Source of the DNA: Candidatus Koribacter versatilis Ellin345
Lineage (GTDB): Bacteria; Acidobacteriota; Terriglobia; Terriglobales; Acidobacteriaceae
Reading direction: 5' to 3'
Length of the DNA: 64,000 bases
NCBI RefSeq assembly: GCF_000014005.1
Contig: NC_008009.1
Coordinates: 3,720,001-3,784,000, forward strand
How positions within the stretch are numbered: position 1 is the first letter of the stretch; the number at the start of each line of letters is the position of its first letter. Below, in pieces: positions 11,257 through 49,260 of this stretch. The notes beneath the pieces are model-generated. The model was not told where the DNA came from and made no database searches. It saw nothing but the letters and a program-made list of their open reading frames with translations. Both the position numbers and the translations under genes were made by a program.

Positions 11257-11910
11257 TTAGTGCAGGCGCGTGACTTCGCCGGTATCGAGCGAGTAGTAGG
11301 CCTCGATGATGGAGAGCTTGCCTTCGTCCATGGCGTGCTTCAGGATTTCGCTCTTCTTCGCAAGGCTCTGTGCAACGGAGTGCACGTGATCGCGAACAGC
11401 GAGGTCCATGGTCTCGGGCTTTTTCGCATCCACCTTGGTGCACGAGGCGGCAATAGGCTTCACGACGGCTTCGAGATTCAGAGAACCAACCTTGCCGCCA
11501 CCGCACGCTGCGCTCACGGCGCCGCAGCTCTGGTGTCCCATAACCAGAATGACGGTCGAGTGAAGATGCTCAACCGAGTATTCGAGGCTACCGATCGCGA
11601 GCGGATCGGCGCTTTCGCCGGCGGTGCGCACGACGAAGAGATCACCGAGACCCTTATCGAACGCGAGTTCGGGCGCAACGCGGCTATCGGAACAACTAAG
11701 CACGGCGACACGCGGCGATTGTGTCTTGGCAAGAGCCTTGCGCTGCGCGACCAGGTCTTTCGAAGCGGGCTGCCCGCTCACGTAGCGCTGATTGCCGGCG
11801 GCGAGATCTTTCCAAACCTCGTCGGCAGAAGGGGCTTTTTGCTGCGCGAACGCAGCGAGACTGCAGGCGATTGCGGGGATGGCAAGGAAGAAGTTCAGCT
11901 TGCGGAACAT
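11257..11910 (-). CDS. periplasmic beta-class carbonic anhydrase
   Basis: 217 residues with a signal peptide (MFRKLNFFLAIPAIACSLAAFAQ, cleavage after Ala-Gln). The beta-carbonic anhydrase motifs are complete: CSDSRV carries the first zinc Cys and the catalytic Asp-Arg dyad, and GHQSCGAV supplies the His and second Cys. The enzyme interconverts CO2 and bicarbonate, here in the periplasm. Gene position and the preceding repeat cluster suggest it is transcribed alone. The catalytic fold appears full length. Confidence 0.94.
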   Translation of the reverse strand: MFRKLNFFLAIPAIACSLAAFAQQKAPSADEVWKDLAAGNQRYVSGQPASKDLVAQRKALAKTQSPRVAVLSCSDSRVAPELAFDKGLGDLFVVRTAGESADPLAIGSLEYSVEHLHSTVILVMGHQSCGAVSAACGGGKVGSLNLEAVVKPIAASCTKVDAKKPETMDLAVRDHVHSVAQSLAKKSEILKHAMDEGKLSIIEAYYSLDTGEVTRLH

Positions 11911-12053
11911 CGATATCTCCTCAACAGACGTTGCGAACAGTGAAAACCGGCGGTGGGCGCGCGAGAACTCGTAGTATTGACAGTTCGCGCGCGTCCAAGC
12001 GGCGGTCTCCTTCGTCTAATAGGGGGTTGGCTCTGGCTGGTAAGATTGAAGCA

Positions 12054-13217
12054 ATGACTCCACAATCGCCATTTTGTGATGTCGAGACCGCGCTGGCCGA
12101 AATCCGCGCTGGGCGCATGATCGTGGTCGTGGACGATGAAGACCGCGAGAATGAAGGCGATTTGACGATGGCCGCCGAGTACATCACCCCGGAGGCAATC
12201 AATTTCATGGCGAAGTATGGCCGTGGATTGATCTGCCTGGCGATGACCGAGGAGCGCTTGGATGCGCTGCGGTTACCGCTGATGTCGGCGGAGAACACTT
12301 CGAATTTCGGCACTGCGTTCACCGAGTCGATTGATGCGCGTGATGGCGTAAGCACCGGCATCTCGGCCTACGACCGTGCTCATACCATCAAAGTGGCGAT
12401 TGATCCGGGGACGCGTCCGAACGATTTGGCGCGGCCGGGACATACATTCCCGCTGCGAGCGCGCAAAGGCGGCGTGTTGGTGCGCGCTGGACAGACAGAA
12501 GCCTCCGTCGATCTCGCAAGGCTTGCCGGACTGGTTCCCGCAGGCGTGATCTGCGAAATCATGAACGACGACGGCACTATGGCGCGCGTGGCGGAGCTCA
12601 CCGAATTCTGCAAACAGCACGACATGAAGATGCTGACCGTCGCGGAACTGATTCGCTATCGCATGGCGAACGAGCGCTACATCCGGCGGCTCGCGGAGGC
12701 GACGGTGCCAACGCGTTACGGCGACTTCCGCATGATCGCTTACGAGTCCGACATCACGGGGGAGTCGCACGTGGCGCTGGTGAAGGGCGACGTGGAGCAT
12801 GCGCCAGAACCGGTGCTGGTGCGCATGCATGCGCATTGCCTCGTCGGCGATGTTTTCGGAGCGACCCAATGCGATTGCTCGAAGACGATCGAGCGCGCGT
12901 TAGAGATGATCGCTCGCGAAGGCCGCGGGGCGTTGATTTACCTCCATCAGACTTCCAAGGGATATTCGGTCGAGAAGCTCGGCGACAAGCTGACCATCCA
13001 GTTCCACCACGACCTGCGGCTGCCCACGTTGCCGGAGCATCAGCGGAAGACGCAGCGCGAAGTGGGCATCGGGGCGCAAATCCTTTCCGATCTCGGGTTG
13101 ACCCGAATCCGGTTGATTACGAATCGTCCGCGAAGAGTGGCGGGGTTGGAAGGGTTCGGGATCCACATTGTGGAGCAGGTGCCAACCGCGGAGCCGAGGC
13201 CGGCGGCAGCGAAGTAG
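12054..13217 (+). CDS. ribBA: RibBA-like protein: DHBP synthase with degenerate GTP cyclohydrolase II domain
   Basis: 387 residues. The N-terminal 200 residues are a complete 3,4-dihydroxy-2-butanone-4-phosphate synthase ([51 protein letters not shown]), which makes the four-carbon precursor of riboflavin from ribulose 5-phosphate. The second domain keeps the GTP cyclohydrolase II zinc cysteines ([15 protein letters not shown]). The usual QEGRG loop reads QTSKG, and the catalytic D-x-R segment reads [12 protein letters not shown], with the Asp lost and the Arg kept. The domain is therefore probably not a normal cyclohydrolase, as in the known RibBX variants. Start ATG 12054; a longer frame upstream is antisense to the carbonic anhydrase. 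Confidence 0.9.
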
Positions 13218-19936: not shown

Positions 19937-20692
19937 CTAGCGGCGCAGGCGATTGGGATCGCGCGCCAGCTCCGCACAATAATCTTCGAGATTCTTGCGT
20001 TGGATGGCGGTCGGCCGCATGAATTCAAAGCCCATACCCATCCCCGGGTGCGAGACACGAATCACCGCGTCAGACTCGAAGTTCAGATCGTCTACCCCAA
20101 GCTTCAGATAGACAACTTGTCCGACCGGATAGGTCGAAGGACATTCGATATAGCAACCACCGGCACTGAGGTCGATGACCGTTCCCCAATGCGTCACGCT
20201 GCTGAGAATCACTTTCGCCCCGCCGTTGCAGCGCAGGCGCGAATGGCGCCGCGTATCGGCATAAGGCATTGCGGTACTGGATGCATTGAGGCGACCGGGC
20301 TTTGGTGTGGAGTCGGTAATGCCTGCGATCCGCGAGGGCGTTGCGGTGCTGGTCGGTGTGCCCGGGAACTGAGGCATGTTCACGCCCCAGAAGTGGCGGC
20401 TGATCTCAACGGCCTGCAATCCGATTTGCGATTCGGCGTGGGTTCCGTTCGGGCCGACCCAGATGATCCGGAAGCGCCCCTTCTCGGAACCGTGACGGAT
20501 ACCGATTATTTCACCGGTACGCCAGTGTTGCGGTCCGGCGAGACGCGCGCCGTGAGCGCTGATGTCCACGGTAGAGCATTCGCAGTTCACCGGCTTGCCG
20601 TCGGCATCGAGACCGAAGACGCGGACTTGCAGTGCGACAGTGCGGCGAGGCTCGCGTCGCGGGGTTGCGCCACTGGTAATGATTGCTGCCAT
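19937..20692 (-). CDS. tandem PilZ-domain protein
   Basis: 251 residues with two PilZ-type barrels. The first (RREPRRTVALQVRVFG ... CSTVDISAHGARLAG) has the arginine-rich start and the DxSxxG motif. The second (DTRRHSRLRCNGGAKVIL ... GTVIDLSAGGCYIECP) repeats them. A proline/threonine-rich linker joins the two near residue 120. Two c-di-GMP sites in one chain suggest cooperative sensing. ATG 20692 was preferred over a TTG at 20713 because it is preceded by GAGGAG. It is transcribed towards the small membrane protein gene. Confidence 0.85.
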   Translation of the reverse strand: MAAIITSGATPRREPRRTVALQVRVFGLDADGKPVNCECSTVDISAHGARLAGPQHWRTGEIIGIRHGSEKGRFRIIWVGPNGTHAESQIGLQAVEISRHFWGVNMPQFPGTPTSTATPSRIAGITDSTPKPGRLNASSTAMPYADTRRHSRLRCNGGAKVILSSVTHWGTVIDLSAGGCYIECPSTYPVGQVVYLKLGVDDLNFESDAVIRVSHPGMGMGFEFMRPTAIQRKNLEDYCAELARDPNRLRR

Positions 20693-20831
20693 GTACTCCT
20701 CGGATGGGCCCAAGCCGAATTCGGGACGGAATTCGGCTTATGAAGCTGCTAGCGTAATGCGGAAATACTTGCTAATCAAGAGACTCTAAGGGTTCCGGCC
20801 AATCCGAAGTACAGCGACCTGCGGGGAGGGA

Positions 20832-20876
20832 TGGTAGGCGCGGCTGGGATCGAACCAGCAACCCTCAGCTTAGAAG
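20832..20876 (-). pseudogene. 3' half of a tRNA-Arg(UCU)-like gene, possible attachment-site remnant
   Basis: Reverse-strand sequence from the anticodon loop CTTCTAA to an encoded CCA. The T arm GCTGG-TTCGATC-CCAGC and the acceptor strand CGCGCCTA are intact. The upstream sequence cannot pair with GCTGA (3' anticodon stem) or with the acceptor strand, so the 5' half is missing exactly at the anticodon loop, the classic crossover point of tyrosine integrases. The body differs from the intact tRNA-Arg at 63475. Confidence 0.75.
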
Positions 20877-21165
20877 TCCCATTCCCTAATCAGTGCGCTT
20901 TCAGGGTCCGGGTTAAGCTCTTGCTCTTTGGCCAGGGAGCGGCTGATGCACTCTCGCGTGGCCGGGTTGCCTTAAAACGGGTGCAATCTTCCTGCAGCTA
21001 CTCTGGCTGAGTCAAGGAAAAACTTTAACCCTGTGATTACGCATGTACCAAGATGGGCACGAGCGCGATTTCCACAGCCTGACTTTGACGAACGTTTGTT
21101 AGTCACCCAACTCGCTGCAGACGTCTGCACAATGCAGACCTAGAACCAGCCGAGGGTCCACCTAG
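20877..21165. other. intergenic stretch between tRNA fragment and ligase gene
   Basis: No complete gene. On the reverse strand a 33-codon open stretch with no start (…SRSLAKEQELNPDPESAL…) ends in a TAA inside the tRNA anticodon-loop sequence. This arrangement is seen when an integrase gene ends in its attachment site, but it is too short to identify. A perfect copy of the 14-bp palindrome is at 21116. Confidence 0.4.
21116..21129. repeat. 14-bp palindrome TGCAGACGTCTGCA, copy 1 (perfect, left end)
   Basis: Perfect palindrome in non-coding DNA, 37 bases beyond the stop of the ligase gene. It is the leftmost of ten copies. Confidence 0.85.
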
Positions 21166-22509
21166 CTAGGCAGTGGTTCGAGCGACCCGCTGGCGTGAAC
21201 CGCCGGGCGCTTCGAATGCGGACTGCAGCTGAGGACGGTTCCACGCCAACAGCGAACCCCACAGAAGCAGCACGGCAGGCAATGAGACGCCCCTCGGGAG
21301 CAAGACGAGCACGGGAATCGTTGCCACATAGAAAGCGCGCATGTTGGGATCGAACTGCCCGCCGATCTTATAGAGCAGGAACCCGAAGAGAACAATCCCG
21401 ATCAGCCCATAGTCGCCTAGGATTTCCGTACCAATGTAGGTAGGCGAGACGCTACCTCGTTCTAATTGGTCCTCTCGCACCCATCGCATCAGGTAGAAAT
21501 CAATCCCGCCCGCACCCACGCCAGTAATTAGAATTTCCGGGTCCTCGCGCGCGACATCCAGAATCGCCGAGTCCTTGTACTCGAAGGATGAAGGGTCCGC
21601 TAGTCGGAGCAGGACCCGATCGTTGACGATGAAATTCACCTGGTCGCTCACCACATAGCCCACTCCGATTACCAGCAGCAGCGTGCCGGCGACAAGAAAA
21701 GGAACCATCTTTTTCCGGTACAGCATCGTCAACGCGAACGCCACGAAAAAAGCAACCCATCCTGATGTTGACAGGGTAAGCACCAGGGCCACGCCGAGAA
21801 CCGAAATCTTCCATTTCTTGCCCTCGACTGGAAACCACATCAGAATCAAAATTGCGAAGACAAATGCGGCTGCAGCATGTTTCGGCTCTCCTGCCAATCC
21901 CGACAGTCGAAAAAGGTCGGTATGCTGCACCTGAAACTGGCCACCATTCTCACCCGAAAGCTTCGTCAAAATTTCCTCGGGAAGCCAGGGTAGGCCGAAG
22001 ACCGCGGCAAGCACCTGGTAAAACCCGAACAAAGCGTTGCAAACGTTTCCCCACACGAAGCCGTAGATCACGCAACTAGGCCGAATCGCGAGCAAGCACG
22101 CGGTTGGGAGCAGCATCCATGTAAAACCCTGACTCGCGATTTGCACCGGCAGGCGGAAGGTGGTCTGCGCTGTGCCCCAACCTGCATTCATCGCATGGTT
22201 GATCTGGAGGTCCAGGCCTCCGCCAACGAACATAATCAGCGTGAGGGTGAACATGTACCCGAGCAGCACAGCGAAGGCGTAAAACCAGGTTTGCCTCGCC
22301 GTCCGCGCCCGGTAAAACATGAGGGCAGTTACGACGAAGAGGACGGCGATAATTTTCTCGAAGTTCAGCAGAACGCCGATCTCGACGCCAATACCTTGAA
22401 ACGGGAGGAGGAACGCTGCGAGGAACGTAAACTTGTCCTGGTTATTGAACGCGAGCGTGCACAGCGACAGGGCAATCAATACGCAGGCGATATAGTAGAT
22501 GGCAATCAC
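21166..22509 (-). CDS. O-antigen ligase / polymerase-like membrane protein (left copy)
   Basis: 447 residues with about eleven membrane helices and one large periplasmic loop (DQVNFIVNDRVLLRLADPSSFEYKDSAIL ... TGVGAGGIDFYLMRWVREDQLERGSVSPTYIGTEILGDYGLIG). The Gly-containing helix after the loop is typical of Wzy/WaaL-type proteins, which join or transfer polysaccharide chains. The start overlaps the preceding beta-helix gene by four bases. A related but not closely similar ligase gene lies at the other side of the prophage. It may be host exopolysaccharide machinery or cargo that alters the surface of the lysogen. Confidence 0.82.
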   Translation of the reverse strand: MIAIYYIACVLIALSLCTLAFNNQDKFTFLAAFLLPFQGIGVEIGVLLNFEKIIAVLFVVTALMFYRARTARQTWFYAFAVLLGYMFTLTLIMFVGGGLDLQINHAMNAGWGTAQTTFRLPVQIASQGFTWMLLPTACLLAIRPSCVIYGFVWGNVCNALFGFYQVLAAVFGLPWLPEEILTKLSGENGGQFQVQHTDLFRLSGLAGEPKHAAAAFVFAILILMWFPVEGKKWKISVLGVALVLTLSTSGWVAFFVAFALTMLYRKKMVPFLVAGTLLLVIGVGYVVSDQVNFIVNDRVLLRLADPSSFEYKDSAILDVAREDPEILITGVGAGGIDFYLMRWVREDQLERGSVSPTYIGTEILGDYGLIGIVLFGFLLYKIGGQFDPNMRAFYVATIPVLVLLPRGVSLPAVLLLWGSLLAWNRPQLQSAFEAPGGSRQRVARTTA

Positions 22510-23399
22510 TTTGCCACCCTCGCAAAGTTCCCCGCCTCGTTCACCATCTGCACTCCTGAAACAATCGTGTCCTTGCCATCTCCTACCAGGCGGACCGCTG
22601 CCGCGGACCCGCCCCGGCTCTTGCCGCTGATCCGGCCTCCGATAATGCTGACCTGTGGCGACTGCACGCGGATGCCATCTACTCCCTCGCCGCCGCCTTC
22701 AACCCATGGGTTCAATATCGCCACAGAGGTCTTCGTCCCTGCGACTTCAATCTGCGCCCCTTGGTTGGACTCCGAATTTGCAGCGGTAAGCGTGAGCCCT
22801 CCGGAGAAAGAGTCCTTATCATCCTTGAAACCGCTTATTACGATTCCGCGTCCACCGTTGAACTGCGAAGAGATACCGTGCACATCGCACCCGTTGCATC
22901 CCGCCAGCACGATGCCATCGCGCCCGTTGCGCCAGCTAGAGAGTCCAGATATTTCGCACATCTGACAAGCTTCGATGACCGCCCCGTCGCCGAGTGCATT
23001 CGTAACCATCACGCCTTCTATGGCGCGCGTGTCGGGGTAAGTAGGCTTCAAAGCATGAAGAGCTACAGTGGCTTGATGATTCGCATTTAAAACGAGGTCC
23101 CTGAAGCTCACGATCCGCGAAGTCGAATCGACCAGCGCCGGCATTTTCGCATCCGCAATGATTTCTGTCATGCGTGCGCCTGCACCCTGCACCGCAATAT
23201 TCGGGTTCAGGAATCGGAGAGAGACGCGTGTGTGATATTTTCCGGGGCCGAGCGTGATGAGAGTGTTTGCCGCGGCGCTATTGACCTGCTTTTCCCAGCC
23301 ATCAACAGGCTTAGGAATATTGAGCTGGGTTTGCGCGGCAACCGGCAGCGCCAGAAGAACCAACAACAAAAAACGAAACCTGAGGGAACGAGAACCCAA
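22506..23399 (-). CDS. secreted right-handed beta-helix protein (left copy)
   Basis: 297 residues. A signal peptide (RFRFLLLVLLALPVAAQ) is followed by the pectate-lyase-3-like opening ANTLITLGPGKYHTRVSLRFLNPNIAVQGAG and then repeated short beta-strand coils (IVSFRDLVLNANHQ, AVIEACQMCEISGLSSWRNGRDGIVLAGCNGCDVHG, GRGIVISG). No catalytic residues can be assigned. Such folds bind or cleave polysaccharides. It is coupled to the ligase gene by a four-base overlap. Its coil pattern resembles the gene at 61059 and the phage fibre at 32312. Confidence 0.8.
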   Translation of the reverse strand: MGSRSLRFRFLLLVLLALPVAAQTQLNIPKPVDGWEKQVNSAAANTLITLGPGKYHTRVSLRFLNPNIAVQGAGARMTEIIADAKMPALVDSTSRIVSFRDLVLNANHQATVALHALKPTYPDTRAIEGVMVTNALGDGAVIEACQMCEISGLSSWRNGRDGIVLAGCNGCDVHGISSQFNGGRGIVISGFKDDKDSFSGGLTLTAANSESNQGAQIEVAGTKTSVAILNPWVEGGGEGVDGIRVQSPQVSIIGGRISGKSRGGSAAAVRLVGDGKDTIVSGVQMVNEAGNFARVAK

Positions 23400-27397: not shown

Positions 27398-27778
27398 TTA
27401 CTTTCCGACCGGGATCCGGTCGAAAGCTTCTTTCACGATCAGGTAGTTCCGGGCGCGCTCGAGCGCAGCCACCGTGAACTCCACGATCTTCGAATTCAGG
27501 TCCACCGTGCCCTCGGCGATCGCCGCCTCGATCAGCGTCTCGATACGGTGCGGCAGTTCCACGGGCTTGCCCTTGGCGTCGAGAATCGGCGAGCCATCGA
27601 CGTTCACCGGGAACGCGCGCACACGCAACGCCTGGTGCGGCATGGGGATGAGGTTGTCGGGATTCGCATCCGCCTGCTTGCGGGTGATCTCGACGATGAT
27701 GGTGTGGCCGCCCTCGATTTCGAAGGCCTGCCGCCCCGCGGCAGCATCACTCAATTTCGGAACATGCTTCTGGATCAT
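27398..27778 (-). CDS. hypothetical phage protein downstream of tail tip
   Basis: 126 residues, soluble. It is coupled to the tail tip gene by an ATGA overlap (27775-27778). Strands and helices alternate (FEIEGGHTIIVEITRKQ, ALRVRAFPVNVDGSPILDAKGKPVELP), and the C-terminal half has amphipathic helices (HRIETLIEAAIAEG, ALERARNYLIVKEAFDRI). Position directly after the tail tip suggests a virion-associated or tail-fibre-assembly role, but no family is recognised. Confidence 0.65.
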   Translation of the reverse strand: MIQKHVPKLSDAAAGRQAFEIEGGHTIIVEITRKQADANPDNLIPMPHQALRVRAFPVNVDGSPILDAKGKPVELPHRIETLIEAAIAEGTVDLNSKIVEFTVAALERARNYLIVKEAFDRIPVGK

Positions 27779-30579
27779 TTCGGATTGCCCCCGATCATGC
27801 TGTTGTGCGAAATAGCGCGCTTGTGCGGATCCTTGCCGGCGGCGAATTCGCGATGGCCGAAGTACAACATGCGGACCTCGCAGAGCCCGAGGAAGAGCAC
27901 ACGCACATACGACCATTCCAGGCGTCGCCGCACCGGCCACTCTTCATCGAGCACTGTCAGGCCCCAGCAGCCATCCATGCCCTCCGCGGTGGTTTCCATG
28001 CCTTCTTTGGAATGGAAGGGTGTGTCGGCCGAGCCTTCCCAAACTGTGCCGTTGTCGTACTCGAGGCGGACGCACCGCACCCGCTTCGAGCTGAAGCCCA
28101 TCTCCAACGATTGGCGCTCGAGCTCGCGGCCGTTGAAGCAATCGGCGAACTCACCATTGCGGATATCGCCAACGGTCCGGCCTTCCTCGAGGAACATGCC
28201 CACACAACAGCAGCCGCCGCCATTACCACCACCGCCCGTGCCGCCGCCACCCATCGCCGGTGTGTTGATCCAGCCGACGTAATAACGATGTCGGCCGGCG
28301 AGTACGTCGGTAAAGTCGGTCGAGGCCTGGTAGGTTTGCGGGCCACCAGCGGGTGGCACGCTGCTGTCGTCAAAGAAGACGTAGTAGCCGGTGCTATATG
28401 CGAGGCCAGTGATCGAGCCGGAATTGAAGCTCACCTGGCCGAAACCGAATTGCAACGCGAAGGCCGCGATCGCGATCGTCGCTGAACTGCCGGCATCGGT
28501 GGCGCTGAGCGGGTTGGTACCACCAACGATCGTGGAATTCTTGTTGCCGATCGTAGTGGGCGAGAGCGACTCCTGGACGATCGAGCTGATCGTCGTCGAG
28601 GCCTGCAGGTTGTCGGCCTCAGCATATGCGCCATACACTCCATACACGTTCCGCGGCCGCACCCGGACGTCGTAATAGGTTCCACCCTCAACGGCGTCGA
28701 TCCAGGCATCTTGCACATCGCCGGCATACTCGGGCTGCACGATCCACGTAGAGTCGGCGTGCTTCTTGAACTCGACGAAGATCTTCCCGCCCTCGATCAC
28801 GAACTGGTCGGCCGGAGAATTCCAGAAGGCATGGATCCGCGCGCGAGTCACACCATCGGGAGCAGTCACGGCATCGGCCGGCCCGCTCTCAATCGTCAGG
28901 TCGGTCACGGACTGCACCGTGTCGGGATCATTGAGTACTGGCGTGGGCGCATCGAGCATGGGCTGCTCATCGGCCGTACTCCAGGCATAGACGTCTTCGT
29001 CGGTCTCGCGCATCGAGAAGTTCACACCGAGCGCCATGTCGCTTTCCACGGTCAGCATCGCCGAAGCCAGCTCGAAGGTTTTATCGGTCCATCCGAAGTT
29101 GGCATGCGTGACCGGCACGACATCGGGCGGCGAGCTGAGATAGGGCCCGAGCTTGCACGCCGCGGCCAGAGTGATCGGTCTGCGTCCGGCCTCGAGCTCC
29201 ATCTTCGCCAGGCGCTGCGACGTCGCCGGCGAAGTGGTAAACGGATACTCCACGTCCTTCCAGGAGATCTCGCCGGCGTCCTGCCAGTAATCCTCCCAAT
29301 GCGCTCCAAGCCCAGGTTCCTTGTCGGCATCGGCAGTGTGGGGCGCCGTGCAGACGTATGCATAACCCATATGCATGGCGGCATCGAGTGCGCCGTACAC
29401 CGTCGTCAACGCCCAGTTGCCTTTGTCGGTGGTGCCGGTGATGCCGTTGTCGTCGGCCACGTAGCTGGCACGCACCACAGGCGGGAAATCCGACGAGCTC
29501 CAGGCATTGCCGGGATAGAGGAACACGCCCTTTACCCCATTGAACGAATCGCGGCGGCCGATACGCCCGGTCAGCGTGAGCGGGCCGCGGAAGTCGTCAT
29601 CGGTAAGCGTGGGCGCAGTCGGAGTGCGCCACGCGCCGAGGAAGATCTTCCACTGCCCGCCCACCCACGGCATTTTGCCGAAGCCCGAGGAGAGCAGCCC
29701 ACTGAGCACATCGCCCACGGTCTTGCTGGTGTCGTAGAAGCCGTTGCAGGTATAGCGCGCCTCGCTGCCACCGGCCGCGAGCTCAACCGCTTCGTCGCAA
29801 AGATTGGCGGCGGCGATGAAGCTGGCGTCATCCAGCTCCCAGCTCTGCGCTCGCAGTCCATACTTGCGATCGGTCATGTGATCGCGGATGTGCAGCGCAA
29901 GGTTCTGCGACCAGGCTGTCGAACTATCGCGCGGGTCGAAGACTTTCTTGCCGCGGATGGTGGCGCGGATCGCCGAAGGTGCACCGTTCGGAAACTTGTT
30001 AGCGTCCCACTTCAAACGAAAGTGCGTCGAGCAGCAGCCTTCCTGCTTGTGCGCGGAGGTCCACGCCGTGGGCGCATCGGCAATCAATCCGGCGAAGGCT
30101 GACTCGCCCGGAGCGCCGAGCTTCGTCTCGACCTTGACGACGCCGGCATACTTGCCGGTTTCATTGCCCGACCCATCGAGAGTGAGCTTGTAGTTGTCGA
30201 ACCAATACTCCTCGATCGCATCGCACTCATGCCCAGCCCACGTCACCACCAGGTGCAGGTATTCGGCGTTGGAACCGCTCGAGCAGATGAACGTGACAAT
30301 ACCGCCAAGCTGAGAACGACCGCGGATGATGACCCTCGGCGCTGCAGGTTGACGGATCGAGACGGCATGGTTCGCGGCATCGTTCACCAGGCTCGAAACC
30401 GAAGGCGGCCGGTTCAACATGCCCACGACGCCGCCCACGATCAGCGTGGCACCGGTCAGAATCAATGTCAGCGCGCTGATGCCGAGCAACGTAGCCGCGA
30501 TGGTGCCAGCGGCGATCGCCGCGCCGGCGCCGGCGCCTACAATCGCCAGCCCGATGATGAGTCCGATGACGGGAGGCAT
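27775..30579 (-). CDS. gpJ-like tail tip protein with C-terminal Hint (intein-like) domain
   Basis: 934 residues. The first 75 residues hold hydrophobic segments (LIIGLAIVGAGAGAAIAAG, LTLILTGATLIVGGVVG), common in tail-tip attachment proteins. The body resembles lambda J (SSGFGKMPWVGGQWKIFLGAW; DDDFRGPLTLTGRIGRRDSFNGVKGVF). A CBM5/12-like insertion (AYVCTAPHTADADKEPGLGAHW) lies near residue 400 and a fibronectin-type region near 600. A Gly run then leads to a domain of about 137 residues that begins CCCVGMFLEEGRTVGDI, contains GSADTPFHSKEG and ends YFGHREFAAGKD…ISHN followed by Ser. This is the Hint pattern, with an N-terminal Cys and a C-terminal His-Asn. Only eight residues follow. Confidence 0.85.
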   Translation of the reverse strand: MPPVIGLIIGLAIVGAGAGAAIAAGTIAATLLGISALTLILTGATLIVGGVVGMLNRPPSVSSLVNDAANHAVSIRQPAAPRVIIRGRSQLGGIVTFICSSGSNAEYLHLVVTWAGHECDAIEEYWFDNYKLTLDGSGNETGKYAGVVKVETKLGAPGESAFAGLIADAPTAWTSAHKQEGCCSTHFRLKWDANKFPNGAPSAIRATIRGKKVFDPRDSSTAWSQNLALHIRDHMTDRKYGLRAQSWELDDASFIAAANLCDEAVELAAGGSEARYTCNGFYDTSKTVGDVLSGLLSSGFGKMPWVGGQWKIFLGAWRTPTAPTLTDDDFRGPLTLTGRIGRRDSFNGVKGVFLYPGNAWSSSDFPPVVRASYVADDNGITGTTDKGNWALTTVYGALDAAMHMGYAYVCTAPHTADADKEPGLGAHWEDYWQDAGEISWKDVEYPFTTSPATSQRLAKMELEAGRRPITLAAACKLGPYLSSPPDVVPVTHANFGWTDKTFELASAMLTVESDMALGVNFSMRETDEDVYAWSTADEQPMLDAPTPVLNDPDTVQSVTDLTIESGPADAVTAPDGVTRARIHAFWNSPADQFVIEGGKIFVEFKKHADSTWIVQPEYAGDVQDAWIDAVEGGTYYDVRVRPRNVYGVYGAYAEADNLQASTTISSIVQESLSPTTIGNKNSTIVGGTNPLSATDAGSSATIAIAAFALQFGFGQVSFNSGSITGLAYSTGYYVFFDDSSVPPAGGPQTYQASTDFTDVLAGRHRYYVGWINTPAMGGGGTGGGGNGGGCCCVGMFLEEGRTVGDIRNGEFADCFNGRELERQSLEMGFSSKRVRCVRLEYDNGTVWEGSADTPFHSKEGMETTAEGMDGCWGLTVLDEEWPVRRRLEWSYVRVLFLGLCEVRMLYFGHREFAAGKDPHKRAISHNSMIGGNPK
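29349..29362. repeat. 14-bp palindrome, copy 3 (one mismatch)
   Basis: TGCAGACGTATGCA in the middle of the tail tip gene. This is the only coding copy read in a different frame (YVCT). Confidence 0.6.
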
Positions 30580-32311: not shown

Positions 32312-35011
32312 CTACTGAATTAACCGCACCAGAATTGCCTTCGGAATAATCTTTTCCGTGCTGGCGGCGTTGAACACGAAGAGCAGGTTTTTGGAAGTAC
32401 TCAAGTCTTCCGCCGCCGTGCTCGTGATCGGCGTGCCGATCGCCGTGCCGCCGACGAACACTTGATCTCCCATCACCCACTGCGCATTCTGCACGCCGCT
32501 GTTATTGCAAAAACGAAGAGCAAAACGGGTTTGCGTGTTGGCGGTGGAGTTCGTGGACGTCGTGGTAAAGGTGGTGCTTCCGAGCGTCCACTTGTAGCTC
32601 ACCGACCCGGACGAAGACACTGAGTGATAGAGATAAACTTCCGCTTGCACGCACTTCCCTGCCGGGATCACACCCAACGCGGCGGTGTAGACCGTCTGAT
32701 CGCCGGCGTTGCCGATGATCTCAGCGAGCGCGCCAGCCTGATAAAGCACATTCGTCTGCCCACTTGGAAGCGAGGTCCACGCGCCCGTTCCACCATCCAC
32801 GTAGTAACCGGAGGTCGGACTGCCGGTACCAATCTGCGACGTGGTAGCCGTCCCGCTAATATCACTGAAGGCTGGTTGAGCCTGGCTCAAAACGCCCGTA
32901 GATGAAAGCGCCGTGACATACTGATGCGTTGTTGCGGTCTTCGGCACCACGGCCGTGGAATCCACATCTGGCATGTAGAAGTTGCGATTTGCTGTCAGGC
33001 TCGCGAGGTTGAAGTTCACATAGTAGGAACCTGACACGAGATGGAAGGCGCCGGCACCGGTCAGAATGCCGTTTACCGTAACCCCGCATTCATACGTGTA
33101 AACGACGTTTGTATTGTCATAGCTGGCAAAACAAACATTGGTCGCTAGACTCGGCCTTACCCATCCCGACGACGGCTCATCCGGAAACCACATGCGCGCT
33201 GCCGAAGTTGAGCGAAAGATGCCACGGCTTGCAGTCGCCGAGTGACTAACGTTGCGCTGCACACTGGGGCCGATGAAACCTCCGCCAACGGCGCCAATCC
33301 ATTCGTCGAAATTACCCGAGGTGGTGTTGAAGAACCTGACGCCATCAATGGTGAGGTTTTGTATAAGCGAAGAACCATCAAAGGAAGCCTGAGCCCAGGC
33401 GGTATTCACCGATCCTGCGGCGCTCGCACTCCCCGGCGAGCAACCAACACTCATAGTGAAATGCGTGTTGTCCGCCACGGTTGCGACCGTTCCCACCTGG
33501 TTATAGTCCGAAGGTGAACCGGATGAGCCCGATAGATAGATAGAGTCTCCCACGGCCATGGTGTGGGTAGAAGACGTTACCCCGGTGAGCACGTTCGTCG
33601 CACAGGACAGAGAACTCAGAGTCCAGGTGACGGGTGACTGCGCGCTGTTGTTTCCCTCAAAACGCAGGCCTTTAAGCGCCAGGCGGGAAACGCTGCTGCT
33701 GGAATCGGCGACGGCCTTTACACCTTCCTTCGTGTTGTACTCAATATCGCCACCCCAGAAGTTCGTGTCCTGCGCTTGCGTCATATAGACGCCGATCTGG
33801 TTCAGGTTCGCTCGCAGCGAATAAAAATCGTTGTTCGTATTGATTTGGCTCGTTCCAACGCCATCGAGCCACACGCCGTACTTATTACCCTTCGACCATA
33901 CCGACCGGAACTGAACAATCTCGCAAGCGACGCAGTGCACTCCCGCGCCGGTCGAAAAGCCCGTGATGAGCACGTTGTCGAAAACGCCGCTTGCCGACTT
34001 CACCGATCCACTGCTGTTGCCTATCAGGACGCCGTCCGCACCGGAGATCGCTCCTCCCGTGGTGGTAATTGTCCCGCTGCAGCTCGAGGCCGCGCCTGAC
34101 GCTGGCAGGCTAAGCGTCCACGAGGTGGGCGCCGCTGTGTAGCTCGCGCCCAAGGCCACGATCACGAGGTTGCCGCTGACGGTGCCACTCGATACGGCGA
34201 CCGTAGCCTTTCCGCCGCTCCCGCCGCCGTTCGAGGACGTCGCCAGGCAGTTGCCAGTACCAGTAGCGCTGCCGCCGCTAGCATAGGCAAACGTGCCGGA
34301 GATCCCGTTGCTCGAACCGGTACCGTCGATCGCGACGTCGCGGATCACGAACTTGTTGGTGGTGGCCGACACGCTTGCCGGGTTAATCGAGATCGGCGCA
34401 CTGCCGCCGCTGGTGTAATGGAGGACCGCGCCCGTGCCGGCGACGCCATCGCCGCCCGGCGCGATGCCCTCGATTGTGAAACTGCTGCCGAGATTGCAAC
34501 CCGTGAGCAGGTAGTGACCGGGGCCGAAGACGTAGCGCTTATTCACCGTCGCGCTGCACTGCGCGTCGGCGCCCGTCCAAGGGAACATCGAGTTTCCTAC
34601 CCCTCCGGTAGAAGCAAGCCACATTTGCGCGCTCACGCTCGGGCCGGCCGGGCAAACGTCGGCCTGCTCGTACGTCTGGCCGGTCGAGGGATCGGTGATC
34701 TGCAGCTTGACGCAGCTCTTGGCGTAGAAGTGGTAGTTGCCTTGGCCATCGGCCGAGAATTGCCCTGCGCCATTCACGCTGATCGCCGAGGCATACGCGG
34801 AGTCGCTGTAGACGGTCACCGTGGGCGAGCACGGCGTGCCAGTGGCCGACGTGGAGCAAGGGCGCACAAGCGCGCCGGGGATCGGAGTGAGGAAACCGTT
34901 CGAGCTCCTCATCGCGATATCGTCCTTGCGGCCTGCCTGGCCGAAGCCCAGCGCGGCCAGCGCCACCACCACTGCAAACGTCTGCACGAATCTTCCGCCG
35001 ATCGGTCTCAT
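32312..35011 (-). CDS. beta-helix tail fibre / tailspike-like protein with signal-like N-terminus
   Basis: 899 residues. The first 26 residues (MRPIGGRFVQTFAVVVALAALGFGQA) look like a signal peptide, unusual for a virion protein. A small beta domain follows (ITDPSTGQTYEQADVCPAG), then from about residue 140 a long right-handed beta-helix rich in Gly/Ser/Thr/Asn (VFGPGHYLLTGCNLG, KFVIRDVAIDGTGSSNG, GVFDNVLITGFSTGAGVHCVACEIVQFRSVWSKGNKYGVWL). The C-terminal quarter is a beta-rich head-like domain. It may bind or degrade host polysaccharide. The helix region resembles the secreted proteins at 22506 and 61059. An ATGA overlap couples it to the tape measure gene. Confidence 0.8.
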   Translation of the reverse strand: MRPIGGRFVQTFAVVVALAALGFGQAGRKDDIAMRSSNGFLTPIPGALVRPCSTSATGTPCSPTVTVYSDSAYASAISVNGAGQFSADGQGNYHFYAKSCVKLQITDPSTGQTYEQADVCPAGPSVSAQMWLASTGGVGNSMFPWTGADAQCSATVNKRYVFGPGHYLLTGCNLGSSFTIEGIAPGGDGVAGTGAVLHYTSGGSAPISINPASVSATTNKFVIRDVAIDGTGSSNGISGTFAYASGGSATGTGNCLATSSNGGGSGGKATVAVSSGTVSGNLVIVALGASYTAAPTSWTLSLPASGAASSCSGTITTTGGAISGADGVLIGNSSGSVKSASGVFDNVLITGFSTGAGVHCVACEIVQFRSVWSKGNKYGVWLDGVGTSQINTNNDFYSLRANLNQIGVYMTQAQDTNFWGGDIEYNTKEGVKAVADSSSSVSRLALKGLRFEGNNSAQSPVTWTLSSLSCATNVLTGVTSSTHTMAVGDSIYLSGSSGSPSDYNQVGTVATVADNTHFTMSVGCSPGSASAAGSVNTAWAQASFDGSSLIQNLTIDGVRFFNTTSGNFDEWIGAVGGGFIGPSVQRNVSHSATASRGIFRSTSAARMWFPDEPSSGWVRPSLATNVCFASYDNTNVVYTYECGVTVNGILTGAGAFHLVSGSYYVNFNLASLTANRNFYMPDVDSTAVVPKTATTHQYVTALSSTGVLSQAQPAFSDISGTATTSQIGTGSPTSGYYVDGGTGAWTSLPSGQTNVLYQAGALAEIIGNAGDQTVYTAALGVIPAGKCVQAEVYLYHSVSSSGSVSYKWTLGSTTFTTTSTNSTANTQTRFALRFCNNSGVQNAQWVMGDQVFVGGTAIGTPITSTAAEDLSTSKNLLFVFNAASTEKIIPKAILVRLIQ
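34973..34986. repeat. 14-bp palindrome, copy 4 (one mismatch)
   Basis: TGCAAACGTCTGCA within codons 8-13 of the fibre gene, in its signal-like segment (VQTFA). Confidence 0.8.
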
Positions 35012-37494
35012 GCTCTGCGTCTCCTCCGCTCCTCGGTCTCAAATACCGCCCGCTTTACTGCTTTCTCTTCCGTGGCGCGGAGCTGGATGGCAAGCTGCTC
35101 CGCAAAACCGACCTGCGCGCCGCGTGCGTCTACAGCAATGTGGTTGTGCACCGTGAGCGCGGAACTGTCACTCATGCCGGACATCGGCACGACATGGCCG
35201 CCGACGTCGGGCACCCACAGCTCCGGGCCCTGGTCGCCGACTACACCCATGTCGCCGGCATCCATGTGGCCACCCGAGGCGAAGAACGGCGTAATGCCCA
35301 CGTCCCCCAGCGAGCCAACATCGCCACCGCCGGTGGGACTGCCGCCCGGCGTGGAAGCAACTCCACCCACGGCGCCGCCGATCCAGCCGAGCACCTTCTG
35401 CATCACGTACACGGCCAGCATCTTGGCCAGGATCTGGTTCATCACGTCGAGGAAAGCCTTGCCGAAGTCCTCGAGGGCGTTGATCCACTTGCCGTTCTCG
35501 ACGTCGCTGAGGAAGCTCTCGAAGCCGCGCTCGAAGGCCTGTCGCGCCAGGTCGCCCATCAGCGAGGCGTGCTTACCGAGATCGTCGAGCTTCTTCTGGA
35601 ACTTATCGGCGTTCGTAATCAGCGCGGGATTGCCGGATGCTTCAGCGAGCGCCTGGTATTGCTGGATCAGTCCGGTGAGCTGACCGGCGGCGCGCCCGTT
35701 GAGCTCCTGGACCTTCGTCTGCCCGTCGATCTGGTTGATTGTGCCGTTTGAAATCGCCTCGTTTACAGCCGCGACTTTCTCTTCGAGGTCGGCATACACG
35801 GTGTCAATCTGCTTGGCGAGGTTCTCGGCCTTCGCCGCGGCGATCGCCATCTGCTTAGCCTGGTCGAGCTCGGTAGTGTCTTTGCCGGCCGCCTGCAGGA
35901 TGCGCCGTTTTTCGTCGTACTCTTTGTTGATCGCCGCGATCGCAACTTCCGCGGAGTGGTCCTTCGCCTCGTCAATCTGCGCCTGGATGGCCAGCACCTG
36001 GTAACCGAAGTCGCGTTCGGCCTTGATCTGCGACGTCGCCTGCGAGCTGACCAGCGCGCCGCGCTCGTTCATCTTGGCGATGACCTGGTTCTGGATCTGC
36101 ACCAGCTGCGCTTCGGCCTGGACCTGCTCGGGCGAGCCCTTCTTCGCGGCGTCCACAACCTTCTGCTGCGCGGCCAGTTCCTGCGAGAGCGCATAGATCT
36201 CGTTATCGACGGCGCCGATCGTGATGTCGTAACGCTGCTTGTAGTAATCGCCGAGCGTGACGAGCCCCTGCTCGCGTTCGAGCTCGAGCGCCGCGAGTTG
36301 GTCCTTGGCTTCGCCCTGCGCGATCGCAACATCCTGCGCGGCATACGCCTTGCGCAATTCCTGCTGGGCTTTGAGCAGCTTTTCGGTGTTATCCGGCGCA
36401 GTAACCGTAAGACTTGGCTTTTTTGTGGGGAAAGCCTTATCCAGGTTTGCTATTGCGGCATCGACATCCGAACCGAGGCCTCCAAGAAAGCCCGATAGCA
36501 AACCCTTCGGCGCCGCATCGAGGAGTTTGAAAAAATCGGACGTTTCTGTTTTGAGCGCCGCGAGGCCTTGATCGAATTGTTGTGCGGCCGCTTCGGCTCC
36601 AAAAAACTCGGCCGTAATCTTCGAAATTTCAAGGCTTGCTTCGGCGATGGCGAGACCGTATCCGGCCACATCGCGGATCGTATCTTTGAAAAACGCTCCA
36701 CCCTCATGCCCAAGGAACTTACCGAACGACGCAGAGAAGGAATCCGTGTTGCCAGTGGCATATTTGAAAGCGTCAGCGAGAGGCCCGAGCTCCTGAGTGA
36801 GCGCAGCGACGAATTGAACTTTGAAACCCTCGGCCTCCATTTGCAGCTTTACGGTCTCATCGTGAAACCGAATCACAGCATCTAGAGCGTCACCGCCAAG
36901 AACGTCCCCGAACTTCGTCGCTTCGGCCGCGGCCTCCGAAATCGCCTGTTTGCCCTTATCCAAAAAGGAGATCATCGCATCGCCGCCGCGACCAAATGCC
37001 TGCACAGCAAGAGCCGATTTCCCCGCACCGTCCGCATAATCCTTGAAACGCTCAGAGATATCGAGAAGGACGTCGGTCACCGGGCGGAGCTTCCCACTGG
37101 CATCGGTCGCACTGACGCCAAGGTCCTTAAAGAGCTGTAATGCCTTTGCGTTCCCTGCACCGGCTTCCGCCATGTTCGTTGATAACTTCTTCAGCGAGAT
37201 TGCAAGCGTCTCGGTGGGAATATCGCTCTGCTCGGCCGCGCCTTTCAGTGCCATAAATTCCGAAGCCGCGGTACCACTCTGCTGCGAGAGGCGACCTAGC
37301 GCGGCTACCGAATCGGCGGTCTCGGCAACAAAATCACCAAATTCTTTCGCCCATTCCGCGATCTGCATCGCGCCAAAAGCTTCTCCAACTCCCAAGGTCG
37401 CGTCCTCAATCGACGCCAGCCCTTCCTTTACATCCGCGATCGCAGCGCCAGCCTGGTTTACGCCCTGGATGATTACCTTGACGTTGTTATCCAT
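35008..37494 (-). CDS. tape measure protein
   Basis: 828 residues. The N-terminal 250 residues match phage tail tape-measure proteins (VIIQGVNQAGAAIADVKEGL ... LGRLSQQSGTAASEFMALKGAAEQSDIPTETLAISLKKLSTNMAEAG). A long coiled coil from about 370 to 640 is rich in Lys, Glu, Gln and Ala (DNEIYALSQELAAQQKVVDAAKKG). A hydrophobic patch (AVYVMQKVLGWIGGAVGG) near residue 725 precedes a Gly-rich end, AVDARGAQVGFAEQLAIQLRATEEK. Its length sets tail length. It lies between the chaperone genes and the fibre gene. Confidence 0.9.
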   Translation of the reverse strand: MDNNVKVIIQGVNQAGAAIADVKEGLASIEDATLGVGEAFGAMQIAEWAKEFGDFVAETADSVAALGRLSQQSGTAASEFMALKGAAEQSDIPTETLAISLKKLSTNMAEAGAGNAKALQLFKDLGVSATDASGKLRPVTDVLLDISERFKDYADGAGKSALAVQAFGRGGDAMISFLDKGKQAISEAAAEATKFGDVLGGDALDAVIRFHDETVKLQMEAEGFKVQFVAALTQELGPLADAFKYATGNTDSFSASFGKFLGHEGGAFFKDTIRDVAGYGLAIAEASLEISKITAEFFGAEAAAQQFDQGLAALKTETSDFFKLLDAAPKGLLSGFLGGLGSDVDAAIANLDKAFPTKKPSLTVTAPDNTEKLLKAQQELRKAYAAQDVAIAQGEAKDQLAALELEREQGLVTLGDYYKQRYDITIGAVDNEIYALSQELAAQQKVVDAAKKGSPEQVQAEAQLVQIQNQVIAKMNERGALVSSQATSQIKAERDFGYQVLAIQAQIDEAKDHSAEVAIAAINKEYDEKRRILQAAGKDTTELDQAKQMAIAAAKAENLAKQIDTVYADLEEKVAAVNEAISNGTINQIDGQTKVQELNGRAAGQLTGLIQQYQALAEASGNPALITNADKFQKKLDDLGKHASLMGDLARQAFERGFESFLSDVENGKWINALEDFGKAFLDVMNQILAKMLAVYVMQKVLGWIGGAVGGVASTPGGSPTGGGDVGSLGDVGITPFFASGGHMDAGDMGVVGDQGPELWVPDVGGHVVPMSGMSDSSALTVHNHIAVDARGAQVGFAEQLAIQLRATEEKAVKRAVFETEERRRRRA

Positions 37495-42155: not shown

Positions 42156-44501
42156 TTACGAGGTCGGGTTGATGTCGTTGATGACGACGAAGGCCTGCGC
42201 ATAGCGCACCGCGATATCGACCAGCATGGAACCGGTCAACACGACGTTGCCCTTGCCCGCCTGGGTGTACGGATCAGCGATGATCTCGAGTGCGCCCCAC
42301 TCGCCGAGGATGAGCTGGGCCCAGTCGCCGACGATCATGGTGTGGAGGTTCGTACCGCTGCCCTTGGATGTGTTCGAGGGCAACTGGTTCGAAGACATCG
42401 CCGGGTAACCCGCGACCGTGTCGTCGCTGTGCCAGATGGGCAGCGAGATGGTGTTGGAGAGCTCGGCGGTGTTGCGCAACTTCTTCTTGACACCTGGCGT
42501 GGTGGCGATGCCCGGGGCGATTAACGGGATGCTGCTCTCCTCGAGATCTTCCTGCGCCTTGGTGATGATGGAGTACGTGATAGCGCCGCCATCGGTGGCG
42601 ATCGCCTCGGTGCCGACGCCGCTCTGGTTCACGATGCCCTTCGGCTGGTTCGAGGTGCCGCTGCCGACGAGCGCCGCGAGATCCACGCCCAACGCGAAGA
42701 TGTTGGCCAGGTCCTCACGCACGAACTGCTCGGCGTCGATCGAGGACTGGATGATGAACTGACGGCTGTAAGCCGTCTGCGCCATCGCCTGCTTCGGCGA
42801 GAGCGTGACGCTGCCGGTGGTCTGATCGGTGGCGGTCACCGCGCTGCCCGGGTTCTCACCGGTCCAGTAGAGAGTCGCCGCAGCCGTTTGCTTGGGGAGC
42901 TGCAGGTTGCCCTGGAGATCGCCGAGCTTGCGGGCGCCCATCTTCATCACCACCAGGCGATTGCGCAGCAGGTCAATGAATTCGTCAGGCCGGATCGTGG
43001 TCTGCACGAAGTTGGTGCCCGGCGAAGATCCGCTATTGAGCACAGCCTTGGGATCGAGGCCCGGCACCGTCGCCCGCAGGTTCGTGGGGATATAGATGCC
43101 GCTCGTTTCGCGGTTCAGCTTCTTGGCGATGGTGTCGCTGACTTCGCGCTCGAAACTGGCATCCGTGTCGCTGCCGAGCTTCTCGTCGCGCTTCTGCGCC
43201 AGCACCATGCTGCGGACCGCACGCAGGATGGAATACTGCCTCTGCTCGCGATCGTTGAGATCCACCTGGGCACCCGGCGCGGGGATGTTGACCGGCTTCG
43301 CGCCCTTCTTCTGAAGGTCAACGATCTCTTCCGAAACCGCATCGATCGTCTTGCCCTCGCGGAGCCAGCCGCTGAGCTTGTCAGTCATGCTTGCGTGGCG
43401 GGCGAGTGCAGTGATGCCCTTGACGCGCTGCTCTTCCGACGCAATTGCGACGTCGCGGAGAACGTTGATTTCAGCGGCGCCTGCCGCCGGAGTTGGTGCA
43501 GTGGCCATGGTGGCCTCCTCTGTGATTTCGGCTGACGCCGGTTTTTCGGCCACCGAAGCAGCCGGAACTGATACAGGAACTTGTGCGCTGGCGCTCTTCG
43601 CAGGACGGCCGCCAAGCAGCGCAGCGATGGTCTGGTCGAGGGTGGCAATGCGGTCCACCATGCCGAGCTGGAGCGCATCCTGCGCGCTGACGACGCGACC
43701 TTCACCAAAGCTATTGCGGACCGTCGCGGCAGTGACGGCGCGGCCGCGGGCAACGCCCTGCACGAATGCGCCGTAATACTGATCGACCATGTTCTGCATG
43801 GCCGCCCGAGCCTCGTCGCTGAGTGGCTGGGAACTCGCGCCTTCGACCTTGTACTTGCCGGCGCTGATGAGAGTTTCCTTGACGCCCTGCATATCGAGCG
43901 CTTTCGAGAGATCTTCATGCGCGACAAACACGCCGATGGACCCCGCCTGACCACTGGGTGTGACAACGACTTCGCCGGCAGAAGCGGCAAGCCAGTAAGC
44001 AGCGCTGGCAGCGCGCGGCGCGACCTGCGCGACAATCTTCTTTTTCCCGCGGCCGGCATAGATCTCGTCCGCGAGCTCGGCAATGCCGAAGACGCTGCCG
44101 CCAGGGGAATCCACGTCGAAGACGATGGCCGAAATATCAGGATTGGAAAGCGCAGAGCGGAAGGTTTGCGTCAACGCATCGATGCCAGTGCCGCCACCGC
44201 TCGAGGCGCGCTCAAACTGCGAAGCCTTGGGGCCGATGACGCCATAGATCGGGATGACCATGACCGCGCCCGAGGTAACCGGCGAAGCCTTGGGCGAACG
44301 CCCTTCGGCCGTGACGGCATACGGTTCACGATCGGTGCGCAGCTCGCCAACCCGCGAGAGAATCTCTTCTTCGCCCAACTCATGACCGGCGGCGCGGAAG
44401 GCCAGCACCGAGGTGATGGACTTGAGCGTCTCGGGAAGGATGGCCCAAGGAGAACTCAGGACCTCGGCAAGCACATGCTGGTATTTAAGCTCGTATTTCA
44501 C
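42156..44501 (-). CDS. S49 protease - HK97-type major capsid protein fusion
   Basis: 781 residues in one chain. Residues 1-300 are an SppA/S49-type serine protease (IPIYGVIGPKASQF ... IVFDVDSPGGSVFGIAELAD ... APRAASAAYWLAASAGEVVVTPSGQAGSIGVF, with the nucleophile in the AAS motif). Residues 300-430 are a helical Lys/Glu-rich scaffold-like delta domain. Residues 430-781 are an HK97-fold capsid (TSGIYIPTNLRATVPGL ... ENPGSAVTATDQTTGSVTLSPKQ ... DLAALVGSGTSNQPKGIVN). In many phages these are separate genes. The frame is continuous with no stop, so the mature capsid must be released by proteolysis of the fusion. Coupled to the portal gene by ATGA. Confidence 0.9.
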   Translation of the reverse strand: MKYELKYQHVLAEVLSSPWAILPETLKSITSVLAFRAAGHELGEEEILSRVGELRTDREPYAVTAEGRSPKASPVTSGAVMVIPIYGVIGPKASQFERASSGGGTGIDALTQTFRSALSNPDISAIVFDVDSPGGSVFGIAELADEIYAGRGKKKIVAQVAPRAASAAYWLAASAGEVVVTPSGQAGSIGVFVAHEDLSKALDMQGVKETLISAGKYKVEGASSQPLSDEARAAMQNMVDQYYGAFVQGVARGRAVTAATVRNSFGEGRVVSAQDALQLGMVDRIATLDQTIAALLGGRPAKSASAQVPVSVPAASVAEKPASAEITEEATMATAPTPAAGAAEINVLRDVAIASEEQRVKGITALARHASMTDKLSGWLREGKTIDAVSEEIVDLQKKGAKPVNIPAPGAQVDLNDREQRQYSILRAVRSMVLAQKRDEKLGSDTDASFEREVSDTIAKKLNRETSGIYIPTNLRATVPGLDPKAVLNSGSSPGTNFVQTTIRPDEFIDLLRNRLVVMKMGARKLGDLQGNLQLPKQTAAATLYWTGENPGSAVTATDQTTGSVTLSPKQAMAQTAYSRQFIIQSSIDAEQFVREDLANIFALGVDLAALVGSGTSNQPKGIVNQSGVGTEAIATDGGAITYSIITKAQEDLEESSIPLIAPGIATTPGVKKKLRNTAELSNTISLPIWHSDDTVAGYPAMSSNQLPSNTSKGSGTNLHTMIVGDWAQLILGEWGALEIIADPYTQAGKGNVVLTGSMLVDIAVRYAQAFVVINDINPTS

Positions 44502-49057: not shown

Positions 49058-49260
49058 AGAATATTCCGCATGCCTCGCCGCTCCTGTGTGCAGAAACCCA
49101 CGCCGACCTGGACTTGCCCGCACTGCCAATGCAACATCACCGCAGCCGAACTTCGGCGACTGGATAACGACACGCTGCAATGCCCGCACTGCAAGCTACC
49201 GTTCCCGGCGCCGAAGCCGAACCGCCCGCAGACGACTTCCTGAACGTATTCCGGCATCAT
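49054..49260 (-). CDS. possible small coupled protein, antisense to the plus-strand zinc ribbon
   Basis: 68 residues. It is joined to the ASCH gene and to the terminase gene by perfect ATGA overlaps, which is how most neighbours in this operon are arranged. The protein (MMPEYVQEVVCGRFGFGAG … LQCGHC …) has one CxxC but otherwise looks weakly folded. It competes with the convincing plus-strand zinc ribbon at 49070-49243. One of the two may be an antisense shadow, or both may be used. Confidence 0.45.
   Translation of the reverse strand: MMPEYVQEVVCGRFGFGAGNGSLQCGHCSVSLSSRRSSAAVMLHWQCGQVQVGVGFCTQERRGMRNIL
49070..49243 (+). CDS. plus-strand zinc-ribbon microprotein
   Basis: 57 residues on the forward strand. 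TWTCPHCQCNITAAELRRL and NDTLQCPHCKLPFPAPK give two CPHC knuckles 22 residues apart, a textbook zinc ribbon, with a Pro-rich tail. Codon third positions are GC-rich. It starts 13 bases from the terminase start in the opposite direction, so the two 5' ends face each other. It has no good ribosome site. It may be DNA-binding; compare the Com-type zinc fingers of phages. Confidence 0.55.
   Translation: MPRRSCVQKPTPTWTCPHCQCNITAAELRRLDNDTLQCPHCKLPFPAPKPNRPQTTS

Follow-up and report, generated by a model that had tools for sequence, protein, structure and literature searches.

We found that a prophage of Candidatus Koribacter versatilis Ellin345 has probably broken the host gene for tRNA-Arg(UCU) and carries a complete substitute for it, an instance of tRNA-dependent lysogeny to which we assign a probability of roughly 84%. 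The window, that is, the whole stretch of 64,000 nucleotides analysed, covers positions 3720001–3784000 of the single-contig genome of 5,650,368 bases. In the proposed mechanism, the phage tyrosine integrase would recombine at CTTCTAAG, a short core that lies within the anticodon loop of the host tRNA-Arg(UCU) gene. With an attP that contains neither tRNA half, integration would split the gene and leave its 3′ half at 20832–20876. The lysogen would survive through the phage's own tRNA-Arg(UCU), now at 63475 in inverse orientation, which would take over AGA; on the far side of the prophage, the core and the now idle 5′ half with its promoter would have been lost later. The UCU tRNA is presumably essential, and the phage tRNA is likely to be expressed and charged. 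The features of this type of lysogeny that are present include a phage tyrosine integrase (PF00589, phrog_1) and an attB that overlaps a host tRNA gene, seen here as the 3′ half and intact in G001, which among the 31 genomes searched is the one further member of the genus. Judged from the sequence, the case fits tRNA-dependent lysogeny in each clearly testable feature, the failure to rebuild the tRNA at either junction being half testable here. The features are listed in Table 1.

The original prediction described the fragment as the 3′ half of a tRNA-Arg cut exactly at the anticodon loop, and the alignment bore this out. Starting from the first base of the loop, the fragment agreed at 44 of 45 bases with the intact G016 gene for tRNA-Arg(UCU) in its 3′ half (BLAST E = 7.3e-17), and this match is therefore not due to chance. 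Read on the minus strand from 20876 to 20832, it comprises the anticodon loop (CTTCTAA), the 3′ anticodon strand, the variable loop, the T arm, the 3′ strand of the acceptor and CCA. Neither ARAGORN nor Rfam at gathering thresholds called a tRNA at this place, and a permissive cmscan of 20780–20940 returned no RF00005, just two weak matches that were unrelated or partial; the identification as a tRNA half comes from the alignment and not from tRNA finders. At tRNA spacing upstream of the fragment, 4 of 7 acceptor positions and 3 of 5 anticodon-stem positions could pair, compared with 7 of 7 and 5 of 5 in the intact tRNA-Arg(UCU) genes of G016 and G008. No 5′ half therefore adjoins the fragment, in agreement with the prediction that the anticodon loop, T arm and CCA were kept and that nothing upstream pairs.

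Table 1. Positions in the window of the prophage, its junctions and the adjoining host genes
Feature	Position	Strand	Remarks
Host PilZ gene beside the 3′ half	19937–20713	minus	PF07238, E = 3.3e-20
3′ half of resident tRNA-Arg(UCU), anticodon loop to CCA	20832–20876	minus	host side of the integrase-proximal junction
att core CTTCTAAG in the anticodon loop; junction with prophage	20869–20876	minus	same core in L219 attP
Probable P arm of attP	20903–20958	minus	aligns with L219 11264–11320
Tyrosine integrase, 387 aa	23486–24649	minus	PF00589, E = 1.9e-10; phrog_1, E = 1.7e-27
Tail fibre gene (central tail fibre J-like)	27775–30579	minus	phrog_5616; homologue in L219
Tape-measure-like gene	35008–37494	minus	
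Head maturation protease / major head protein	42156–44501	minus	phrog_53, phrog_617
Portal protein	44498–46108	minus	phrog_21, E = 4.5e-105
Terminase large subunit	46976–49189	minus	phrog_15, E = 7.9e-198
ParB-like gene, P′ side	58916–60736	minus	phrog_4715
−10-like TAGAAT upstream of phage tRNA	63459–63464	plus	seen by eye
Complete phage-borne tRNA-Arg(UCU)	63475–63551	plus	inverted relative to the 3′ half; ARAGORN and Rfam
Eroded second junction	63552–63628		core, resident 5′ half and its promoter region not recognised
Possible P′ arm remnant (weak)	63567–63587	minus	aligns with L219 29–53 nt after core
Host ZIP-family transporter gene	63577–64000	plus	PF02535, E = 2.1e-30; longest ORF from 63577
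Palindrome GCARACGTYTGC, nine copies	21117, 25289, 34974, 40083, 44907, 49279, 51590, 56516, 63325		

The fragment had also been predicted to be the remnant of an attachment site, and the locus of G001 supported this. There, an intact tRNA-Arg(UCU) lies between the two host genes that flank the prophage here, in the order ZIP gene, tRNA, a small response-regulator-like ORF (with a Pfam match below the curated cut-off) and PilZ gene; the PilZ orthologue adjoining it is 68% identical to that of the window. In the window, ZIP and PilZ are about 43 kb apart with the prophage between them, the fragment still adjoins PilZ in the orientation of the ancestral locus, and the tyrosine integrase sits 2.6 kb from the cut. 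In G016, tRNA-Arg(UCU) likewise precedes a PilZ gene. The best-matching locus in each of seven other genomes held an intact tRNA-Arg(UCU) (7 of 7), the gene neighbours being compared in G001 and G016 only. The comparison of synteny in relatives that had been proposed thus found the intact gene, and not a lone fragment, in G001 with both neighbours and in G016 on the PilZ side. The ZIP gene start aligns closely with G001, whose start corresponds to a position near 63655. The longest ZIP ORF of the window starts at 63577, inside the eroded junction, and its N-terminal extension (63577–63655) may have been created by the junction.

We found no full tRNA-Arg with the same 3′ half elsewhere in the genome, contrary to what had been suggested as a check. 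The stretch at 20832–20876 is single copy in the whole genome, and the signature running from the UCU anticodon loop to the T loop occurs at two sites, the fragment and 63475. The genome thus yielded a single intact UCU tRNA, that at 63475, and the disrupted host tRNA was non-redundant. A D-arm pattern allowing up to three mismatches matched six places in the whole genome, namely 63475 and five tRNAs with other anticodons, with no lone 5′ half among them. A census of 44 tRNA matches contained the TCT anticodon once; this census is incomplete, as it lacks tRNA-Ile(GAU) and tRNA-Ala(UGC), which must exist, and the signature scan is the stronger test. AGA accounted for 3 of 86 arginine codons in four presumed host ORFs and for 8 of 357 in eleven phage ORFs.

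The tRNA at 63475 had been described as intact, with a different body and the opposite orientation, and all of this held: its own stems pair perfectly, it lies on the plus strand, and its acceptor and anticodon stems differ from those of the fragment. It had been set aside on these grounds, correctly in so far as an inverted tRNA with a different body is not the direct att partner of the fragment, a role for which we also rejected it; its role as a substitute carried by the phage had been missed. It was 90% identical to the tRNA-Arg(UCU) of the viral contig L219, compared with 84% for the best of 14 other tRNA-Arg(UCU), among which the 83% of G014 is slightly low as that sequence was trimmed two bases wrongly. 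The DNA flanks of the two tRNAs appeared unlike each other by eye. Three viral contigs share 29 bases of the tRNA at 63475, and in two of them the tRNA lies within a tRNA cluster. A promoter scan reported no plus-strand promoter in the region of the −10-like motif.

The closest other viral locus, L219, is unintegrated and provided a view of what the attP may have looked like before integration. It was one of 63 loci obtained when an alignment of ten integrases was used to search viral contigs; the window's own record (IMGVR_UViG_637000001_000001, integrase 100% identical) was another. The L219 integrase is 64% identical to that of the window, and the contig is colinear with the window prophage once the latter is circularised, sharing tail genes, the integrase, the ParB-like gene and homologues of 56494–57318 and 54878–55555. 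Its attP is flanked by phage genes, with the integrase to one side and the ParB-like homologue (11656–12819, 38% identity) directly after the core. The core is part of a 27-nt stretch that runs from the D loop to the anticodon loop of a tRNA-Arg, with 26 of 27 bases matching. We found no acceptor strand ahead of this core and no 3′ half behind it; integration at such a site would produce a functional tRNA at neither end. A complete tRNA-Arg(UCU) lies 4.1 kb from the core and is inverted relative to it, as the tRNA at 63475 is relative to the fragment. The attP of the window is known from one side, and 27 nt of the 5′ side belong to the L219 core, a longer portion than is seen in the window; by analogy with L219, the attP of the window probably also had no tRNA 3′ half. 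In the P-arm alignment, the segments of the window and L219 end 26 and 27 nt before the core, and 3 of 300 shuffles reached its score. This similarity and that of the P′ arm (4 of 300 shuffles) are both weak.

The second junction, on the ZIP side, is eroded, with homology to the G001 flank stopping at 63629. A scan of 20001–22000 and 62001–64000 for the core found it at 20869 and, inverted, at 63507 inside the phage tRNA, and nowhere else. That a 5′ half survives on the ZIP side was considered and rejected, as the best local scores of the G016, G001 and G008 halves were matched by 273, 33 and 433 of 500 shuffles. With the promoter region included, 181 (G016) and 436 (G008) of 500 shuffles were as good, as expected by chance; for G001 none of 500 was, but that alignment fell in the ZIP-proximal flank and not in the tRNA. 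A 9-nt match to GCATCTGCC on this side, spotted by eye, was left uncounted. The tRNA is not rebuilt at the integrase-proximal junction, and none is rebuilt at the far junction at present. Cores that face in opposite directions cannot support excision; the prophage is therefore expected to be locked in place, and erosion of the second junction would make the tRNA replacement irreversible, with excision lost.

We considered whether the integration could instead have been of the classical kind, with a 3′ half in attP and an intact hybrid tRNA at the far junction that was later deleted as the phage happened to carry a tRNA-Arg(UCU). Most integrase relatives with a recognised Arg or Lys site do have a classical 3′ half (assigned by hand to tRNA-Arg at 13 and tRNA-Lys at 4 of the 63 viral loci), the arrangement in G125 looks classical across a contig break, and the far junction of the window is lost. 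We nonetheless judge this history improbable: the nearest relative, L219, combines a core-only attP with a complete tRNA, as do L224 and L227, and the genome holds no phage-derived 3′ half, its UCU signatures being those of the fragment and 63475. We think it very improbable that the tRNA at 63475 belongs to the host, either as a second resident tRNA-Arg(UCU) or as an independent gain, with the prophage merely landing beside it. Such an origin would suit its position at the very edge of the prophage, beyond the last annotated prophage ORF (61927–63246) and adjoining the ZIP gene, as well as the resemblance of its body to tRNA-Arg of other members of the order (up to 84%). Yet G001 lacks such a tRNA, the single tRNA at its locus being the resident one in another orientation than that at 63475; the closest match is a phage tRNA with the same orientation relative to the core; and a copy of a palindrome found throughout the prophage (63325–63336) lies 139 bp upstream.

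The fragment might also be an old tRNA remnant of another element, unrelated to this prophage, which we rate a shade lower again. tRNA-Arg(UCU) is a recurrent integration target in this order, and classical 3′ half direct repeats occur in L104, L105 and L106 (G020, G030 and G029), where an intact copy of the gene lies 1.3, 6.1 and 3.7 kb away. Against such an origin, the sequence adjoining the fragment can be aligned to the P side of the L219 attP with the same spacing from the core (26 and 27 nt), and the prophage is opened where L219 has its attP. That one junction is an assembly artefact is hardly credible: one assembly of the species was read, but it is a single 5.65-Mb contig with 100% completeness in its record, and the same layout of genes and tRNA recurs in the independent metagenomic contig L219.

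Within the integrase family, a core-only site together with a complete tRNA-Arg(UCU) was found at 3 of the 63 viral loci (L219, L224 and L227); cores and tRNA halves were scanned at all 63 loci and ARAGORN was run on 60, leaving out L277–L279. In both L224 and L227, the complete tRNA overlaps the end of the integrase ORF by ten bases and the core-only site lies about 200 bp further on; recombination and replication genes follow the core in L224, and the L227 contig ends about 1 kb beyond it. Among 69 integrases placed in a tree, the window and L219 formed one pair (100/100) and L224 and L227 another (100/99), well apart from it, and the complete-tRNA strategy is thus used by two well separated integrase pairs. 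The label 'complete tRNA' required three changes on this tree, in which labels were set by hand and 42 of 69 rows, including the weak matches L235, L236, L238, L254, L266 and L272, carry none; these changes may represent one gain and two losses. We also observed that, around the core, 4 of 11 resident-type tRNA-Arg(UCU) that were compared have ATTTCTAAT instead of CCTTCTAAG (G001, G005, G004 and G010; loci L036, L034, L035 and L038), and that the phage tRNA of L227 (11035–11111) carries TTTTCTAAAC. These anticodon arms could reflect escape from the integrase, or drift.

Other genomes contained less certain cases. In G055, which sits on a long branch of the integrase tree, an intact tRNA-Arg(UCU) lies about 70 bp past the integrase ORF, and a 5′ half with the anticodon arm lies on another contig. 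A pattern search of that genome did not find the 3′ half; two further matches look like chance, a reversed-pattern control having given seven, and the candidate on C14 was rejected by eye, since it lies in an entire tRNA whose anticodon differs. Its 3′ half still missing, G055 may represent another chromosomal case. A 28-base pattern taken from the fragment gave no match in the genome contigs searched. We also noted 5′ halves of tRNA-Arg(UCU) at integrase-family junctions, on contigs C145 and C221 of G131 (L145 and L181) and at the viral loci L260, L263 and L270. The 5′ half of G131 is near the integrase, and an intact tRNA, the only UCU signature of that genome, follows phage-like genes on another contig; none of the ORFs in the DNA beyond it recurs in four relatives from the same genus. 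From this arrangement, what the G131 phage contributes may be a 5′ half together with a promoter instead of the usual 3′ half.

The mechanism itself is neither new nor confined to Actinobacteria. tRNA-dependent lysogeny was established by experiment in 2024 in actinobacteriophages and mycobacteriophages, including Fionnbharth, LeBron and Gaia (PMC10865867), and the discussion of that paper raises its prevalence outside actinobacteriophages as a question. The systems described there resemble the present one in having a tyrosine integrase, a short core in a tRNA gene that is not rebuilt and a complete phage tRNA of the same isotype, which in Fionnbharth is also on the opposite strand; related phages vary in whether they rebuild the tRNA, as in the integrase family of the window. 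Table 2 of that paper gives Lys, Ile2 and Leu tRNAs for non-rebuilding phages, with cores of 8–17 bp and no Arg. Those cases are thus Lys, Ile2 and Leu in Actinobacteria, demonstrated by experiment, whereas ours is tRNA-Arg(UCU) in Acidobacteriota, deduced from sequence only. In contrast to the actinobacteriophages, the resident 5′ half and the second junction are lost here, and excision therefore could not restore the gene. A Lactobacillus johnsonii prophage, Lj965, is cited in the same paper as not rebuilding its tRNA and carrying the cognate one. In Sinorhizobium meliloti, according to the text available of PMC11476347, phage-related sequences replace an inactivated tRNA gene, the element-borne tRNA being more like those of unrelated species; this replacement resembles our case and occurs in another phylum. 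In the available text of PMC12429752, the prophages under study are without tRNA replacement, which the group had described for other prophages. Prophages and islands that target tRNA genes in the classical way, such as those in the Islander database, share the tyrosine integrase, the split at the anticodon loop and the displaced 3′ fragment at one end, present here at 20832–20876; unlike in the classical islands, no restored intact tRNA with the same 3′ half is found in direct orientation at the other end.

Within the open-access literature searched, we found no report of tRNA-dependent lysogeny in Acidobacteriota, and none of the 18 papers there that use the term mentions this phylum. The portion of PMC5900883 that counts three prophages in Ellin345 does not mention a tRNA, and the accessible portion of PMC11924767, on acidobacterial viruses, does not describe this type of lysogeny. 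What looks new here is the phylum, the integrase family and the eroded second junction with its apparently permanent replacement. The window would add a case from Acidobacteriota whose anatomy is clear, involving a different tRNA and an integrase family unmatched by tblastn of the window integrase in 50,697 phage records. A possible end point is a host that depends on its prophage for an indispensable translation gene, in which case the prophage would be incurable; such dependence would also explain a route by which a foreign tRNA gene displaces a resident one.

These elements can be joined into a broader reading, which we hold tentatively and consider less likely than not. The prophage tRNA would have permanently displaced an essential resident tRNA gene whose second junction and 5′ half are gone; AGA decoding could then be restored neither by excision nor by loss of the prophage, and the host would be incurable. 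The mode of sparing the host would switch repeatedly within one integrase family of Acidobacteriota phages, between an attP with a 3′ half, perhaps a promoter-bearing 5′ half, and a complete substitute tRNA, and the ATTTCTAAT arms of G001, G004, G005 and G010 and the TTTTCTAAAC arm of L227 may escape the integrase.

By its gene content, the interval between ZIP and PilZ is a temperate tailed, siphovirus-like prophage. A terminase query gave no match except the window's own viral record, and the ParB-like protein used as a probe matched in 361 of 397 genomes. Two ORFs of 447 and 297 aa lie at 21166–23399, between the integrase and the att remnant; they had no match in Pfam or PHROGs at E = 0.001, and the gap between integrase and core in L219 is too short for counterparts of them. 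In the stretch that separates the ParB-like gene from the phage tRNA, ORFs at 61059–63246 are beta-helix and O-antigen-ligase-like (the latter with a Wzy_C match below the curated cut-off) and are possible surface-conversion cargo. The nine copies of GCARACGTYTGC, compared with 0.02 expected in the window, all lie within the prophage, with one copy in the 18.4 kb of L219 that were covered and none in L224; they are possibly candidate operator or stoperator-like repressor sites. In the alignment of ten integrases, K219, R305, H306, H329 and Y339 are invariant, and a TTAxxxE[LI] box occupies the position of the first catalytic arginine of other tyrosine recombinases.
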